From: a virus
Virus record (IMG/VR): IMGVR_UViG_3300033153_003999
Coordinates: 1-63,536 of that record
DNA length: 63,536 nt
Reading direction: 5' to 3' (one strand)
In this document: piece by piece, positions 55,842 to 63,536 of the stretch
Numbering within the stretch: the first letter of the stretch is position 1
How the letters are laid out: each line of letters opens with the position of its first letter
Translations under genes and position numbers: made by a program
The notes under the pieces: model-generated
Seen by the model: only the letters and a program-made list of their open reading frames with translations
Databases searched by the model: none
Told to the model about the DNA's origin: nothing

Positions 55842-57464
55842 TTATGGGAAAAGGCTCTCGCTGGCAACAATGTTATTTCTGTTTACCCTGATTAATTCTG
55901 GTTTTTTCAGGTCGCCAAGGTAGGTTGTAAACGTCCCGCTGGTGACGGATATATTTGCCGCATCAGCTATCTCGTTTCGTGTGATTCCTTCCGGGCCAGC
56001 ATCAACGATGGCCTGCAACATACGGCAGGCGCCGGCTCGCAGTTTCCTTTTCCACTGGCTCATAATCTCGTCGTGCGTTGCTGGCTTGCTTGGAATATCG
56101 GATCCAAGATATTCAATGCCGGCGTCGTTTGTTGCTATGCCGGGGCCGCTCTCATACAGATAGCCAAGCGCGCGAATATCTCCCAGATAGGTTGTAAATG
56201 TTCCGGAAGTTGGGCTGATGTCGGCCAGCATGCCGAGCTGGTTGCGTGTCAAACTGTCTGGATAGGCTGCGGCCAGCTGTTGAAGCATGCGGCGCGCGCC
56301 TTTTCTAAGAGTGGTGTCAGTTACCACGCTTTCCCGTTTAACCTGTTTTTCTTCCTGCCCTGCTTTTTGCCGGTGTCTGGCAAGAACCCGCTCTACTTCG
56401 TTGATTAGTTTTTTGCTATCACCAGGAATTACCACCTTTTCCCGTTTGATCTTAGCCACGGCTTTGGCAATTCTTTTCTGGACTTCCTGCTCTGGTATAC
56501 CAGTCTTATCGGCCTTTCTGAGGGCTATTGTCAGATCGCGCCTGATCCTCGCGTTTTCTGTTTTGAGTTCGGCAAGGGATTTGGCCTCACGCTCCGCTTC
56601 TTTTGGGAGATCAGCCAGTTTTGCCAGCACCTTCTTGATTTTGGCAGAGGGCGCGGGAGGGGTTTCTATCAGGCGTTGACCGACTTTCGGGTGTCTGGTT
56701 ACGACCGGGCCGACAAGAATCCTGGTGACTTCCCGGGTAAAGGCTGGGCCAAAAACAAAAAACTCGCCTTCGTTGAAATTGCGTAAAGTTTGCGTGGCTT
56801 CTTTTGGTGACATGCCCAGCTCGTCGGCTGCTCGTTTTACGTCAATATCCAAGCCTGTGCGCCCAATCAGCTTGTTTATACACTCTGCGGCAACATCTTT
56901 GTGCAGCTTGGATAGTCTCTGAGTGGCCGTTATCAGGCATTGGCCGCGCTTGCGACCACGGGTGGCGACATCTATCACGGCGCCAGTGCTTTCAGATTTC
57001 CCCTTCTCCGGGGCGTAGACATGGGCCTCGTCGAGGATAATGCAGACCGGGCGCCATAATTTTTTGGGGGCGTTCACCAGGGCGTCGAGGAAAAGCCTGA
57101 CAAATGCTTGCCGCTCGTGGGCTTTGAGATCATAAATATCAAGGACTGCCGAGACGCCGGTTTCCAGTAGACGCTTTGCCAGCATGGCCGCCGTTCTCGG
57201 GTGCGCCAGGGCGTCGCCATCGTGCTGGGAGCAAATTACGAAGTCGTATTTCTCGCGCAGTGTGCTGAATTCTCCCTCTGGATCTATAACCAATACCTGC
57301 ACATGATTTACTATCTGCTCGATAATCCGGCGCAATGTCCAGGACTTGCCGCCACCAGAGTTAGCCTGAATCAATAGACGTGTTTCCAGTAGGCGCGGTA
57401 TATCGATAGATACTTTTATCTTTTCTTTTGCTGGCCCTACGGTACCTATGAATGGTTTAGTCAT
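55842..57464 (-). CDS. HerA/FtsK-like ATPase with tandem winged-helix repeats
   Basis: A 540-residue protein. Walker A GGGKS (37-41, in ANSGGGKSWTLRR), Walker B CIILDEAHVYAP (141 on), GRKRGQCLITATQRLSKLHK sensor region: HerA/DUF853-type ring ATPase. A Lys/Arg/Glu coiled coil (about 275-385) precedes two copies of a winged-helix-like repeat, each with TSGTFTTYLGD. HerA-type pumps work with nucleases in end resection; here likely with the YqaJ exonuclease or in replication. Confidence 0.8.
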   Translation of the reverse strand: MTKPFIGTVGPAKEKIKVSIDIPRLLETRLLIQANSGGGKSWTLRRIIEQIVNHVQVLVIDPEGEFSTLREKYDFVICSQHDGDALAHPRTAAMLAKRLLETGVSAVLDIYDLKAHERQAFVRLFLDALVNAPKKLWRPVCIILDEAHVYAPEKGKSESTGAVIDVATRGRKRGQCLITATQRLSKLHKDVAAECINKLIGRTGLDIDVKRAADELGMSPKEATQTLRNFNEGEFFVFGPAFTREVTRILVGPVVTRHPKVGQRLIETPPAPSAKIKKVLAKLADLPKEAEREAKSLAELKTENARIRRDLTIALRKADKTGIPEQEVQKRIAKAVAKIKREKVVIPGDSKKLINEVERVLARHRQKAGQEEKQVKRESVVTDTTLRKGARRMLQQLAAAYPDSLTRNQLGMLADISPTSGTFTTYLGDIRALGYLYESGPGIATNDAGIEYLGSDIPSKPATHDEIMSQWKRKLRAGACRMLQAIVDAGPEGITRNEIADAANISVTSGTFTTYLGDLKKPELIRVNRNNIVASESLFP

Positions 57465-57742
57465 TTTGTCCCTTGTCTATTGCGGTTCTTAACCGCTATG
57501 TACGATATGTCTGATGCTGGGAACTTTCGTTCTTTTCCGGTTTTGGTGTTTGTTTCATGGACATATGTAGGATCGCACCACCAGCTTTCGCTATATCCGG
57601 TTATTTGTATAAGCAGGTTCCGGCCCCCGAGGGAAACCGACACGGTACTGTATATGGGATACTGCTCCTTGATCACAGACATTAAATGCTCTGCAGTGTC
57701 TTGGTGTTTCTTTTCGGCACGTTCGATTGTTTTATTCATCAC
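57461..57742 (-). CDS. Small unknown protein
   Basis: A 93-residue protein; two ATGs in a row at 57742 and 57739. Overlaps both neighbours by four bases. TVSVSLGGRNLLIQITGYSE is beta-like. Unknown. Confidence 0.6.
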   Translation of the reverse strand: MMNKTIERAEKKHQDTAEHLMSVIKEQYPIYSTVSVSLGGRNLLIQITGYSESWWCDPTYVHETNTKTGKERKFPASDISYIAVKNRNRQGTK

Positions 57743-58515
57743 TTCTCCCCTGGCATATGTGATAACAATGGTTGCTGGCTTTCTATCGCCTTAATGACGT
57801 TGTCCTCGTCACCAAAGAAAGTCTCAATCTTGTGCGCCATTTGGCAAATGTTCATCATCACGTTGTAGAAAAACTTGGCGGCCTCTTCGGTGTATGGCAT
57901 TTCCATGAAACTGTCTGGCAGGGATGCCCCTACAAGGCTGTTGAGCATTTCGCCATAGAGCCGATCATCGTCGAATTGTTGCGTCTCGTACTTGACGCTC
58001 TCGTATGATGCTCGCTTGTAGACAATCTTTTTGCGCACTTCGGCGTTGATCCCTATCGAGAAGTGACTGCTGGTATTAAAGTGGCTGCCGCGCCGAAGCG
58101 TGCCAATCCATTCGCTCTCGCCGCCGTTATAGTTTTTGGAGTAGTTCCCGTTTGGGAAAAGCTCGCCAGTAGCTTTGTTTCTGACGCACGCGTATTGAAC
58201 CTTATGGCTGTATGCGATAACGATTGACTCGGTGGTTTCACAATCCATGTGATCCTTCATGGCAGCACTGATAAATATTTCTATTTTTCTCAGGTCTTTG
58301 CTGGAGATCCGTTTCTTCATCTTCGTGTCGTTTCCCCAAACCTCTGACGTATCTATTTCCTTGTTTCTAAATCTTGCCACAACAGTGCTCCCTAGCTCGT
58401 CCGGGTATGACACACTAAAAACACCGTCATTTAATACCGTTACTTCTGACATGAACTCATAAAGCTCGCCGGCTTCGTTCCTGTGAGAAAACCCTTGCGA
58501 TTTTAGTTTTGGCAT
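57739..58515 (-). CDS. Unknown protein of the recombination operon
   Basis: A 258-residue protein coupled to RecT (TAATG at 58515). Mixed alpha/beta; no zinc or Walker motifs. SIVIAYSHKVQYACVRNKAT and SEWIGTLRRGSHFNTSSHFS recur in phage proteins of unknown function. Could be a single-strand-binding or accessory recombination protein, unproven. Confidence 0.6.
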   Translation of the reverse strand: MPKLKSQGFSHRNEAGELYEFMSEVTVLNDGVFSVSYPDELGSTVVARFRNKEIDTSEVWGNDTKMKKRISSKDLRKIEIFISAAMKDHMDCETTESIVIAYSHKVQYACVRNKATGELFPNGNYSKNYNGGESEWIGTLRRGSHFNTSSHFSIGINAEVRKKIVYKRASYESVKYETQQFDDDRLYGEMLNSLVGASLPDSFMEMPYTEEAAKFFYNVMMNICQMAHKIETFFGDEDNVIKAIESQQPLLSHMPGEK

Positions 58516-59552
58516 TATTGTTTCGCCAGACAGGAATCGCAGGTATCGACGCCCTGCTCCACTTCAACCGGGTTAACGCCGCAGAGGGTACACATACCGG
58601 GCGGGATCTCTGCCGGTGGCTCTTCTTGTTCTGCCTCAACGGCCGCGACCTCGGGCTTTGACTGGATTGTGATCGCGTCGTTGAGTCGGGCCACGCACTC
58701 GTCGTAATCAGTTTTTGCCAGATCCGACAGGCTCTCGATCTCGAAGGCGGACAGTATCTTGTCGGGAGCGACTCTGGCACGCAGCACCAGATCTGTGATG
58801 TTGTTGAGTTGCTCCTCGCCAATGACTTCCACGACATCGTCAGTGATGTCGTGCGTAATGCCTTCATGCTGGTTGAGCACGTCGATAGCCGTGTCCAGGC
58901 GGGGGCTGCCGCTCGAGCGCGGCCACAACTTGGCAGCGCGCTTGACCAGCGTTTTTTTCATCATCTGGATGGTGTGGTCTACCCACGGGCCGGCTTTCTT
59001 CCTTTTGTAGTACTCGGATTTGTCCCGGATCCGGTACAGCTCGTCAACGCCCATGCGGGTTGCCATCACGGATCCGTCCTGCAAGATGGCGACAACGTAA
59101 CCGCCCTTAATGCTGTCCACGCTGTCATCCCATGGATCGGCAACAGCGTGTTTGGGATAGGTGAAGCCGTCGATCCATTCAAAAGCGTCGGCCTCGCGCA
59201 CCATTTCCACAGTCAGCGTCTTGAGAACGCCGCTATCGGTAGCGAGCTTGTACAGTCCCTTGTATGAAATATCGAGACAGCACTTGCCGTCACGAGGTAC
59301 GAGGTAGGTCAGGGCTTCGGCTGGGTTGAGCGTGAGACCAATGGCAGCCACGTTGGTAATGGCGTCGATGATCGTCTCCTGCGGCATGCCGGCGAGATAA
59401 TCGTTTCCCCTCATTATCTGCATGGCGAAATTGGACTCTGTTCGCCAGTCAACGAGGTCGCCGCTCTTGTGCGCGATCTGTATAAATTTCGGTTCTGCCT
59501 GCTGGACAAGACCTGAAACCACAGCCATTTGATTACTGCTTGTTTTCGCCAT
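58515..59552 (-). CDS. recT: RecT-family single-strand annealing protein
   Basis: A 345-residue protein. DAITNVAAIGLTLNPAEALT, YLVPRDGKCCLDISYKGLYK and the WVDHTIQMMKKTLVKRAAKL block are RecT signatures. It coats single strands and anneals complementary sequences. The C terminus adds two zinc-like CxxC pairs (CTLCG, CDSC), unusual for RecT but seen in some phages. Preceded by GAGGAGACGATA. Confidence 0.9.
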   Translation of the reverse strand: MAKTSSNQMAVVSGLVQQAEPKFIQIAHKSGDLVDWRTESNFAMQIMRGNDYLAGMPQETIIDAITNVAAIGLTLNPAEALTYLVPRDGKCCLDISYKGLYKLATDSGVLKTLTVEMVREADAFEWIDGFTYPKHAVADPWDDSVDSIKGGYVVAILQDGSVMATRMGVDELYRIRDKSEYYKRKKAGPWVDHTIQMMKKTLVKRAAKLWPRSSGSPRLDTAIDVLNQHEGITHDITDDVVEVIGEEQLNNITDLVLRARVAPDKILSAFEIESLSDLAKTDYDECVARLNDAITIQSKPEVAAVEAEQEEPPAEIPPGMCTLCGVNPVEVEQGVDTCDSCLAKQ

Positions 59553-60213: not shown

Positions 60214-60753
60214 CTAAAATAGATAGTTGTCGATGCTGGTCGTAGCATTGGTCATGGACAGCATGCCATCCAGCTGACCCAAGGTCTCAACCATGTCCTC
60301 AACCTCACAAACGAGATCGCGCTCGTTAATGTTGATGATGACGTTTTCCGGGTTTTCCGTCTCTTTATCGGAGACAGGGGCACCTTTGTTGATTGCTTCC
60401 TGACGGATCTTGCGAATACTGTTCTGCATTCCGGTCAGGTTTGCCTGTACCCGTGGCGCAATGTCTCGGCGCCAGACAATCCACTCAGAAATTGAGCGAT
60501 CAACGCCGTTTATGGTGATCCTGTTGCTCTCGTTGGCGCGATTGATGGCGATCCGGAGTTTCAGGGCGCGGTCATTGAGGTCGTCCATGGCCTGACGTTC
60601 TCTTTTAATCTCGCCGGCCTGGCCGCCCTCTTTAATGAAGGGGTCGGAGAATTTTTCCTGGCGGTACAGGTGCTCGTTAACAAAGCTGGCCTTCTTTTTC
60701 AGCCGTTTGCCGATGGTTTTAATCTCGGCCAGAGCTTCAGTGATAGTGCTCAT
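60214..60753 (-). CDS. Unknown helical protein
   Basis: A 179-residue, mostly helical, charged protein; ATG 60753 has GAGGAGACGAC. RKIRQEAINKG and EDMVETLGQLDGMLSMTNA; no motif recognised. First gene of the minus-strand operon, which suggests an early role. Confidence 0.6.
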   Translation of the reverse strand: MSTITEALAEIKTIGKRLKKKASFVNEHLYRQEKFSDPFIKEGGQAGEIKRERQAMDDLNDRALKLRIAINRANESNRITINGVDRSISEWIVWRRDIAPRVQANLTGMQNSIRKIRQEAINKGAPVSDKETENPENVIININERDLVCEVEDMVETLGQLDGMLSMTNATTSIDNYLF

Positions 60754-60831
60754 GTCGTCTCCTCGGTTTTAGTTGAACTTTGATGGTTGTTGAGGTTAAA
60801 CTCCATCGCAGACAAATGCAAGGGGATCTCG
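60754..60831. promoter_or_regulatory. Divergent control region with operator-like repeat
   Basis: AGTTGAAC (60771-60778) and GTTAAACT (60795-60802) form an imperfect inverted repeat (7 of 8 positions). A plus-strand TTGAAC (60773) has a weak -10 at 60796. Between the minus operon and the replication operon, this is a natural place for early promoters and an operator. Confidence 0.4.
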
Positions 60832-61107
60832 ATGCGAGGAAGAAGCAGGAACGCCGTCAAATTGGAGGCGATCTATAAACGTAATAGAAAGGTGCTTGTC
60901 GATGCCGTCAAGAAATTCCCGAGAGGGTGGGCTGGTCTGGCAGACGGTCTAAATACCTGCGGCTTTAAGGGTATAGGACGTGACAATTGTCACTCATGGA
61001 GCAAAACACAGGGTACGCCACTGGAATACCTGGAAATGGTCGAAGCCCTGCTCCGGATTCCGAGAGAGAAGCTGCGCCAAGACGTACCCTGGAGGCAGCA
61101 CCCTTAA
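60832..61107 (+). CDS. Small possible regulatory DNA-binding protein
   Basis: A 91-residue basic protein; ATG 60832 has AAGGGG upstream (longer frame from 60787 exists). The centre (VDAVKKFPRGWAGLADGLNT to NCHSWSKTQG) is compatible with a helix-turn-helix, like Cro/CII-type early regulators. Its TAA overlaps the next ATG. Confidence 0.55.
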   Translation: MRGRSRNAVKLEAIYKRNRKVLVDAVKKFPRGWAGLADGLNTCGFKGIGRDNCHSWSKTQGTPLEYLEMVEALLRIPREKLRQDVPWRQHP

Positions 61108-61919
61108 TGTATGGGAAGGTATTTGAAACTATCTATGAATCCACGGTAGCTGATGACTGGCGGTCGTTAATCACCATGATTCAGTTGATTGTTCTGGCCG
61201 ATCACCGTGGCGAGGTGCATCACAGTATACGTGGCCTGCACCGGATCACCGGGATTCCACTTGAGCACCTCAAGGCCGGCATTGAAATGCTTGAGTCACC
61301 AGATCCCGAGAGCCAATCAAAAACAGAGGAAGGTAGGCGAATTATCAGGTTCCCAGAGGTTGATGGTCGTCAACCCGTAGGCTGGAAGCTCGTCAATTAT
61401 GAGTATTACCGAGACCTGGGCTCACGATACGAAAACAAGGAAAAGGCAGCGGCCAGACAAAGAAGGAAAAGAATCAGAGATGGTGACAAGTCACAGAAAA
61501 ACACAAATAAGCGTGACACGTCACAAGCTGTCACGGACAGTCACGCATGTCACGGTGATACAGATACAGATACAGATTTTAATAATATATGGGTTCATTA
61601 CCCAAAAAGGGCAGGATCAAATCCGAAGAAACGAGCCCGTAAAGCGTTTAGCGCCAGAATTACAGAGGGCTCCACTTTTGATGGAATCTCACAGGGAGTA
61701 GACCGTTACTATGCCTACTGTGAAGCTACGGGAAAACTCAACACCGAGTACGTCATGCAGGCCGTTACTTTTTTTGGGCCTGAACACCATTATGCGAACA
61801 AATGGGAGTTACCCAATGAAACACGCGGGAAACTATCTGCCCCAGAAAGGGTTGAAGCAGCAATCCGGAGGAGAGATGGGGAAAAACCAATCGAAGGAGA
61901 GTTTGGGCCAGATAACTGA
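61107..61919 (+). CDS. Replication initiator, O-like
   Basis: A 270-residue protein; ATG 61107 with GGAGGCAGC upstream. The N-terminal half (LITMIQLIVLADHRGEVHHS, RGLHRITGIPLEHLKAGIEM) is the winged-helix replisome-organiser pattern of phage O/DnaD proteins. A Thr/Asp-rich linker (SHACHGDTDTDTDFNN) lies over origin iterons, and the C-terminal part (WVHYPKRAGSNPKKRARKAF) resembles phage primosomal proteins. It would bind the origin and recruit the P-like loader encoded next. Confidence 0.8.
   Translation: MYGKVFETIYESTVADDWRSLITMIQLIVLADHRGEVHHSIRGLHRITGIPLEHLKAGIEMLESPDPESQSKTEEGRRIIRFPEVDGRQPVGWKLVNYEYYRDLGSRYENKEKAAARQRRKRIRDGDKSQKNTNKRDTSQAVTDSHACHGDTDTDTDFNNIWVHYPKRAGSNPKKRARKAFSARITEGSTFDGISQGVDRYYAYCEATGKLNTEYVMQAVTFFGPEHHYANKWELPNETRGKLSAPERVEAAIRRRDGEKPIEGEFGPDN
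61483..61592 (+). other. Putative replication origin (iterons plus AT-rich stretch)
   Basis: Two GTGACnnGTCAC palindromes (61483-61494, 61513-61524) and further GTCAC copies at 61530, 61540 and 61549, about ten bases apart, so on one face of the helix. They are followed by GATACAGATACAGATACAG and the AT-rich TTTTAATAATATAT. Iterons then an AT-rich block inside the O-like gene match the lambda ori layout. Confidence 0.65.
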
Positions 61920-62412
61920 GAAACATATCGACGAGCTGTGGCGCAAGATGACCAAGATGTACGGCGCCACGTTCACCAACCAGTACGGTGAGATCGATGA
62001 CGGTACTTGGTTGCGGGCGCTGAAAAACCTGACGCCACAGGAGTTGGGTATAGGGCTCGATAAATGTTTGGACAGGGACAGCGAATTTCCTCCTGGACTG
62101 GGAGTTTTTCGCCGGCTCTGCCGACCAAAGCAGTATTCGTACCACCAGATTTATCGGGCACTGCCGAGTCCGCCGCCAGATATTGAAATGGGATCCGCGG
62201 CGCTGACCGAGATACGAAACATTCTTAAACGAGGAGACGTTTATGAAAAAGGCAAAAAAGAAGCTATCGAACCGGGAAGCGATCCGGCGACTGATGATGT
62301 CGGGCAAGTGGTGGACGATTCCACAACTGCGGGCGACGCTGAAGCTCAGGCACCGCCTGCGTCCGATGGAGACCACAGTCTCGGCCAAGATCCGGGATCT
62401 CAGGAAGAGTGA
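61876..62412 (+). CDS. Replication protein P-like helicase loader
   Basis: A 178-residue protein starting at ATG 61876 (GGAGGAGAG). It has the lambda P-type core IDELWRKMTKMYGATFTNQY, TWLRALKNLTPQELGIGLDK, and FPPGLGVFRRLC. Lambda P removes DnaB from the host loader and delivers it to the O-origin complex. The last 40 residues are acidic and Ala-rich. Overlaps the O-like gene by 44 bases. Confidence 0.8.
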   Translation: MGKNQSKESLGQITEKHIDELWRKMTKMYGATFTNQYGEIDDGTWLRALKNLTPQELGIGLDKCLDRDSEFPPGLGVFRRLCRPKQYSYHQIYRALPSPPPDIEMGSAALTEIRNILKRGDVYEKGKKEAIEPGSDPATDDVGQVVDDSTTAGDAEAQAPPASDGDHSLGQDPGSQEE

Positions 62413-62485: not shown

Positions 62486-62919
62486 TGGCTGATAAATCAA
62501 AAATTGAATGGACTGAGGCCACAAAGTGGTGCACAGCCTGTAAAACTGAGCATCCCGTTTCAAAGTTCGGCAAAGATATATCTCGCGGCGATGGGTTAGC
62601 TGCTTGTTGTCTCGCTTCCCGTAGAGTGAAGGTACGCAAACCGCAACTCGGTAGCTTAGGTCGCAGAAAATGGCTTGTTCCTACTCGCGATGGAGATAAA
62701 AAACAGGCTCGTAGACGGGTCAATTACCTTGTTGAGCAAGGAAGAATTCCGCGTCCAGATGATCTGCCGTGCATGGATTGTCTTGATGAAGTTTATGTCA
62801 ACCAATACCGGCATGAATACGATCACGCCAAAGGATATGACGGTGAGAATCAGCTTTATGTAGAAGCTGTTTGCTCTCGTTGCCACCACAACCGAGAGGA
62901 CGCACGCCATGCCGGGTAA
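62485..62919 (+). CDS. HNH endonuclease fused to DUF5131 N terminus
   Basis: A 144-residue protein. Its first 13 residues (MADKSKIEWTEAT) are identical to the DUF5131 allele at position 5, then the sequence switches to zinc-ribbon CTACKTEHP and HNH-like CMDCLDEVYVNQYRHEYDH, CSRCHHNRED. The HNH gene has inserted after codon 13 and uses the target's start. Confidence 0.8.
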   Translation: MADKSKIEWTEATKWCTACKTEHPVSKFGKDISRGDGLAACCLASRRVKVRKPQLGSLGRRKWLVPTRDGDKKQARRRVNYLVEQGRIPRPDDLPCMDCLDEVYVNQYRHEYDHAKGYDGENQLYVEAVCSRCHHNREDARHAG

Positions 62920-63536
62920 AACAAAGATTGAATGGGCTACCGATTCATGGAATCCGATTACCGGCTGCTCAAAAGTTAGTCAAGGCTGCAAGCACTGTTA
63001 CGCCGAACGTGACTGGGCGCGACTGTCTGCGAATCCGAAAACAGTTTACTACGGTCGCAAGTTTACCGACGTGCAGTGTCACCCAGAGCGACTAGATCAA
63101 CCACTACGCTGGAAGAAACCGCGCCGGATCTTCGTAAACAGCATGAGTGATCTGTTTCACGAGGATGTGCCGGATGATTTTATCCAAGAAGTGTTTGCTG
63201 TTATGGCATTAGCAAACAATCACGTATTCCAAGTCCTCACTAAGCGGCCAGGGCGCATGCGTGATTTCATGGCAAATTTGATGAACAGCGCGATGGCCGA
63301 GGGTATGGCGCAACGCCGGTACTTCGAGAAAACCGGGGAAGATCCGTCGATGTGGCTGGCAGTAAATTTCCCTCTTCCTAACGTCTGGCTCGGCGTATCT
63401 GTTGAAGACCAGGAGACCGCAGACGAACGTATCCCGCTGTTACTACAAACACCAGCTGCCGTGCGGTGGTTAAGCATGGAGCCATTACTGGGGCCGGTTA
63501 ATATCTGTCCTAAATGCTTGGGTAAAATGCCGAAAA
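62909..63536 (+). CDS. DUF5131 (phage Gp37/Gp68) protein, continues at 625
   Basis: Starts at ATG 62909 inside the HNH gene and reads off the window end in frame with 606-1013. KIEWATDSWNPITGC, a Cx6Cx2C cluster and CYAE as in the family. Compared with the allele at 5, residues about 75-135 differ (longer insert), while the flanks are near identical, a mosaic pattern. Confidence 0.9.
   Translation, partial: MPGKTKIEWATDSWNPITGCSKVSQGCKHCYAERDWARLSANPKTVYYGRKFTDVQCHPERLDQPLRWKKPRRIFVNSMSDLFHEDVPDDFIQEVFAVMALANNHVFQVLTKRPGRMRDFMANLMNSAMAEGMAQRRYFEKTGEDPSMWLAVNFPLPNVWLGVSVEDQETADERIPLLLQTPAAVRWLSMEPLLGPVNICPKCLGKMPK
63487..63536 (+). repeat. Terminal repeat copy (circular overlap)
   Basis: Identical to 526-575 and 575-624. 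With 64 further identical bases upstream (63423-63486 = 462-525) it marks the point where the circular map closes. Confidence 0.95.

Follow-up and report, generated by a model that had tools for sequence, protein, structure and literature searches.

The window analysed here is the whole 63,536-nucleotide stretch of viral DNA in IMG/VR record IMGVR_UViG_3300033153_003999 (positions 1 to 63,536), and our subject is its O-like gene, which encodes a two-domain replication initiator and carries, in the linker between the domains, an array of GTGAC and GTCAC repeats followed by a hexamer tract and an AT-rich stretch. Of the readings considered, a lambda-type origin accounts best for these three elements, by a wide margin. 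It is likely that replication starts inside the initiator gene, as in lambda, with the O-like protein acting on the GTGAC/GTCAC array; the location of the origin in this gene is the firmest part of that proposal, and its reading by a basic helix is a part that we favour with more reserve. The original prediction had described a lambda origin design with a different iteron, which is supported by the repeats, the AT-rich tract, the two-domain linker and a P-like loader gene. The annotated lambda origin, passed through the same pipeline, gave the same architecture (repeats, AT-rich tract, linker and P). The relevant features are as follows, in window coordinates.

61107–61919, plus strand: O-like replication initiator gene, 270 amino acids (open reading frame call and C-domain PHROG matches)
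61107–61397, plus strand: N-domain, winged helix, residues 1–97 (AlphaFold2 model; weak generic winged-helix fold matches)
61398–61490, plus strand: long helix, residues 98–128, with basic motif KAAARQRRKRIRD; proposed iteron reader (AlphaFold2 and motif comparison)
61483–61494, no strand: iteron pair 1, GTGACaaGTCAC
61513–61524, no strand: iteron pair 2, GTGACacGTCAC
61530–61553, no strand: direct GTCAC iterons at 61530, 61540 and 61549
61557–61577, plus strand: hexamer tract, GATACA in 3.5 copies (ACAGAT), with repeated CTG on the bottom strand
61560–61814, plus strand: C-domain of the O-like protein, residues 152–236; presumed loader contact (PHROG matches)
61574–61600, no strand: AT-rich tract, 81% AT; presumed unwinding site
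61876–62412, plus strand: P-like helicase loader gene, next after the O-like gene (PHROG 109 match, 1.7e-8)

Repeats and linker of the O-like gene

The array holds seven sites (GTGAC at 61483 and 61513; GTCAC at 61490, 61520, 61530, 61540 and 61549) and no other strand-collapsed pentamer in the window clusters as densely, apart from one A-run that ties with it. The array opens with two inverted pairs GTGACnnGTCAC, set 30 bp from each other, in which the two sites start 7 bp apart, and continues with three direct repeats spaced 10, 10 and 9 bp; the phased array that had been predicted is present, but its spacing is not uniformly ten bases. The codon phases of the sites run 1, 2, 1, 2, 0, 1 and 1, and since all three phases are used, the array is not a by-product of a peptide repeat. 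Shuffling the gene among synonymous codons never packed seven sites into about 76 bp (0 of 20,000 shuffles for each of two null models). The GATACA run expected after the iterons was found, with half a copy beyond the three announced, and the AT-rich tract lies where it had been placed, on the C-domain side of the repeats (the O-like gene averages 52% AT). At least three tandem RCAGAN hexamers occur in the window at this tract alone, and 12 times in 6.4 Mb of DNA, counted on both strands with the window included and its N-domain relatives left out. In lambdoid phages, unwinding depends on the AT-rich tract, whereas binding of O does not (PMC7466680).

The gene begins with an ATG that overlaps the stop codon of a preceding small gene (60832–61107). 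Its description as O-like stands for the C-domain, which matches PHROGs 26426 (8.5e-28), 1701 (1.5e-26) and 270 (1e-19), and fails for the N-domain, which has no lambda O sequence match. In Pfam, the N-domain reached no family at the curated cut-off and did not match Phage_rep_O, the lambda O family, even at E 1; residues 1–124 match no PHROG; and the N-domain has no match in INPHARED and none among annotated phages and plasmids. A fold search returned weak generic winged-helix matches (CodY, MarR, plasmid initiators), none with E < 0.1. Judged by sequence, then, the N-domain is not a lambda O homologue. AlphaFold2, run on a 15-sequence alignment, models a winged helix at residues 18–95, a long helix at 98–128, disorder at 129–150 and a helical C-domain from 152. 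The basic motif (residues 113–125, 61443–61481) includes AAARQRRKRIR, and the iterons that follow code for residues 126–149, that is, for the disordered linker between the two domains, which is where they had been said to lie. Cumulative GC skew over the whole window, suggested as a check, is confounded by gene orientation and adds little as origin evidence.

The window resembles the lambda origin in gene O, and Stx phage origins, in that the DNA for the linker between two initiator domains holds iterons and then an AT-rich tract, with the loader gene P next. The window differs in its short GTNAC half-sites, lambda iterons being longer, in an N-domain unrelated by sequence, and in the tandem hexamer that stands between iterons and AT-rich tract. 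By the same method, the initiator genes of lambda, TP901-1 and Tuc2009 each showed repeats of their own, which are different ones. The Tuc2009 Rep gene, annotated as containing an origin, resembles the window in having 11-bp-phased repeats and then a purine-rich short-repeat tract, but its iteron is CAACCA and its initiator is another one.

Conservation among N-domain and C-domain relatives

Relatives of the N-domain (L184–L203) were gathered without regard to DNA repeats. Their C-domains vary, and almost all of them have a repeat array at this linker position. The window, L186/L187 and L195 use GTCAC; L185, L188–L190 and L192–L194 have GTAAC or mixed GTNAC, and others have GTCAAC, GTGGAC or GTCRAC. 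Because the iteron varies in this way, the N-domain seems tied to the presence of an array and not to one iteron sequence. L184, whose winged helix is the closest to that of the window, has a different basic helix and is without a GTNAC array. C-domain relatives with other N-domains showed no GTSAC cluster, which rules out transfer of the iteron through them. In L020, the N-domain relative whose next gene was examined, that gene encodes a DnaB-like helicase in place of the P-like loader.

At least two tandem RCA(G/A)AN hexamers follow the iterons in 15 of the 17 N-domain relatives, window included. Of these tracts, thirteen share a reading frame and two are read in a different one, so it is the DNA that has been kept rather than the peptide. 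Repeats in all codon phases, together with a hexamer tract held at the same place and an array retained by nearly all relatives, demonstrate at the level of sequence comparison that array and tract are both under selection as DNA. In a set of 32 genes with GTCAC arrays, purine and AT content over the 48 bp that follow the array exceed those of the gene (P 8e-5 and 2e-7), and a period of six is plain downstream of the arrays both in the window's family and in a set of initiators with the Phage_rep_org_N domain.

A basic motif beside GTNAC arrays in other phages

Searching for GTCAC arrays by DNA pattern yielded, among the matches listed, largely replication proteins with unrelated N-domains, most of them with a basic stretch of the AERQRRYRER type near the start of the array. 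The search pattern itself biases such a scan; with a scrambled pentamer as control, 46 matches were obtained, about three of them judged to be in replication proteins. In the reverse search, DNA coding for AERQ[RA]RYR was collected without selection for repeats, an array being at least five GTNAC in 110 bp. Arrays were present in 50 of 87 nonredundant open reading frames, as against 7 of 4080 control regions (0.17%), and GTNAC came first among the 16 self-complementary abNcd families. The collected frames include replication initiators and terminase small subunits. The O-like gene, whose basic motif directly precedes its own GTNAC array, belongs with the initiators that combine motif and array.

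Several observations accompany these searches. The scrambled control caught CAGTC arrays in initiator-like and primase-type linkers (L155; L144, L176), by which linker arrays are, as far as sequence goes, not limited to GTNAC. The basic motif is also found in terminase-small-subunit-like proteins (L209, L289, L293, L311, L347), and the genes of most of these contain GTNAC clusters, which could be packaging sites. An HNH-nuclease-like domain directly follows the motif in L397, L410, L427, L275 and L277, and the array is then missing. Proteins of 112–115 amino acids starting MAKS(A/P)AERKAAQRARQ (L018, L024, L082 and similar) have a four-site GTSAC array across the gene in many related contigs.

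The clearest coupling between motif and iteron comes from the Phage_rep_org_N family. These initiators, like those with DUF1376, resemble the window gene in combining a basic motif with a linker array of GTCAC or GTAAC, and the Phage_rep_org_N set shares the six-periodic tract, but the N-domains of both are unrelated by sequence to that of the window; we found no curated description of array or motif for either. Four named Phage_rep_org_N phages pair RKQKQRE with GTCAC and RVxKHRE with GTAAC. The rule was fixed in writing before the test, for which loci were gathered by winged helix alone: RKQxQR loci had nine GTSAC arrays and no GTWAC, and RVxKHR loci no GTSAC and 16 GTWAC (Fisher 4.9e-7), three more loci with either motif having no array. 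Loci with other motifs were mixed (5 GTSAC, 13 GTWAC, 12 without array). On the winged-helix tree, array type changes 11 times, at least four of them forced by well-supported branches, and motif type ten times, at least five of them forced; both labels are near random placement, yet coupled to each other. Because the two labels switch repeatedly and jointly, and because L184 departs from the window, these comparisons argue that the winged helix does not set the central base of the iteron. The comparison, which took in hundreds of other phages, suggests that this base is set by the basic helix or by a cassette of helix plus array.

The half-site of bZIP proteins, TGAC, is contained in GTGAC. 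As in eukaryotic bZIP proteins, the window protein would have a long basic helix (98–128, in the model only), but there it is followed, according to AlphaFold2, by a disordered linker and no leucine zipper. What the window protein would share with these proteins, and with the bZIP-like repressor RptR (PMC12255303), is a basic helix that is proposed to read a short site. RptR reads TAGCTA (PMC12255303), which differs from the GTGAC/GTCAC of the window.

Proposed mechanism and alternative explanations

We hypothesize that the O-like protein binds the GTGAC/GTCAC array, the base reader most likely being the basic helix at residues 113–125, which would extend the winged helix and place one basic helix on each GTNAC half-site, half-sites lying about 5, 7 or 10–12 bp apart. 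The assembled complex would strain the adjoining hexamer and AT-rich tract, and the C-domain would bring P, which would load host DnaB. In an exploratory extension of this scheme, the hexamer tract would melt and its bottom-strand CTG would give host primase its first starts, on the rightward leading strand. The start triplet reported for primases is CTG in Gammaproteobacteria and CTA in several Firmicutes (PMC5204125). The bottom strand of the tract is 3.6-fold enriched in CTG in the window's family and 2.6-fold in CTA in a Gram-positive-type family, a contrast partly confounded with base composition and drawn from an exploratory analysis. A role of the hexamers as primase sites is a doubtful proposal, though the tract bears on the question of whether phage origins hold arrays of host primase start sites.

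Besides that confounding, several points weigh against our reading. Binding by the O-like protein, melting and loading are inferred from sequence, and the confidence of the AlphaFold2 model is moderate (mean predicted local distance difference test, pLDDT, 70.7). The relatives are mostly metagenomic, with no hosts assigned, and within the family of the window the motif-to-base rule holds imperfectly (L190, L192, L194). A further rule on the residue before AERQ, found on one set (P 1.6e-4), stood at 5/1 vs 5/11 in the validation set (P 0.056, not below 0.05). Motif and array are also adjacent in the DNA, so exchange of a cassette could couple them without direct recognition; travel of a cassette does not by itself account for the similar pairing across unrelated families.

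Among the alternatives, the one that survives best keeps the same origin and has the iterons read by the winged helix as in classical lambda O, the basic helix adding only non-specific affinity. The model does place a winged helix ahead of the basic helix and linker, and lambda-type O on its characterised iterons is the best known case (PMC7466680). However, a single winged-helix family holds different iterons, and unrelated N-domains occur with the same GTNAC iteron, following the basic motif; we regard reading by the winged helix as rather unlikely. The array might instead be an operator or autoregulatory site for early transcription, with no origin. About 490 bp upstream there is a further GTGACnnnnGTCAC palindrome (60980–60993, no strand, GTGACAATTGTCAC, in the small gene at 60832–61107), a possible outlying binding site, and small motif proteins without an assigned role also have arrays. 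The persistence of array and hexamer tract in the initiator linker beside an AT-rich tract across phages, and the lack of a promoter-like site by consensus in 60700–61700, make an operator improbable. A packaging or other site is more improbable again: seven members of the motif set do match each of two terminase small subunit PHROGs (1496, 26270), but the gene in the window encodes an initiator, not a terminase, and a P-like loader gene comes next. Least credible of all is chance, or a low-complexity protein linker without a DNA role. In its favour, DTDTDT-like linkers can come from repeat slippage and the hexamer run alone in the window is weaker under synonymous shuffling (P 0.019); against it, seven sites in three phases were never reproduced by the shuffles and the hexamer is kept in two frames among relatives.

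Returning to a lambda-type origin with another iteron, we take the motif-to-iteron code to be the more novel and unproven part. Its general form is a portable reader-plus-site cassette in unrelated phage proteins (initiators, terminase small subunits), in which a basic helix of the AERQRRYR/RKQxQR/RVxKHR kind would read GTNAC half-sites nearby in its own gene. RKQxQR would specify GTSAC, and RVxKHR would specify GTWAC, as N-AERQ often would; in initiators, the cassette would stand beside a six-periodic tract with the host primase start triplet on its bottom strand. We consider the case for this generalization evenly balanced. If true, sequence alone would reveal the origins of very many uncultured phages, and a class of phage proteins that mostly carry hypothetical or loose family annotations would prove to contain a small DNA-reading motif with a testable motif-to-base code. 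Our literature search returned no relevant item on the motif peptide, on GTAAC repeats and phage origins, or on DUF1376 origins; its coverage was partial, and an earlier description is possible.

Other features of the window

A leftward block on the minus strand (55842–59552) encodes a RecT-type annealing protein (58515–59552) and a HerA/DUF87-type ATPase (55842–57464) with weak C-terminal helix-turn-helix matches. A 49-bp exact tandem repeat at 526–623 (feature 526–624) is found again at the very end of the window, and 420–575 matches 63381–63536 at 96%. The record probably represents a circle whose end was joined wrongly. Two diverged copies of a DUF5131 (Gp37/Gp68-type) gene, at 5–347 and 62909–63251, are 80% identical in DNA.
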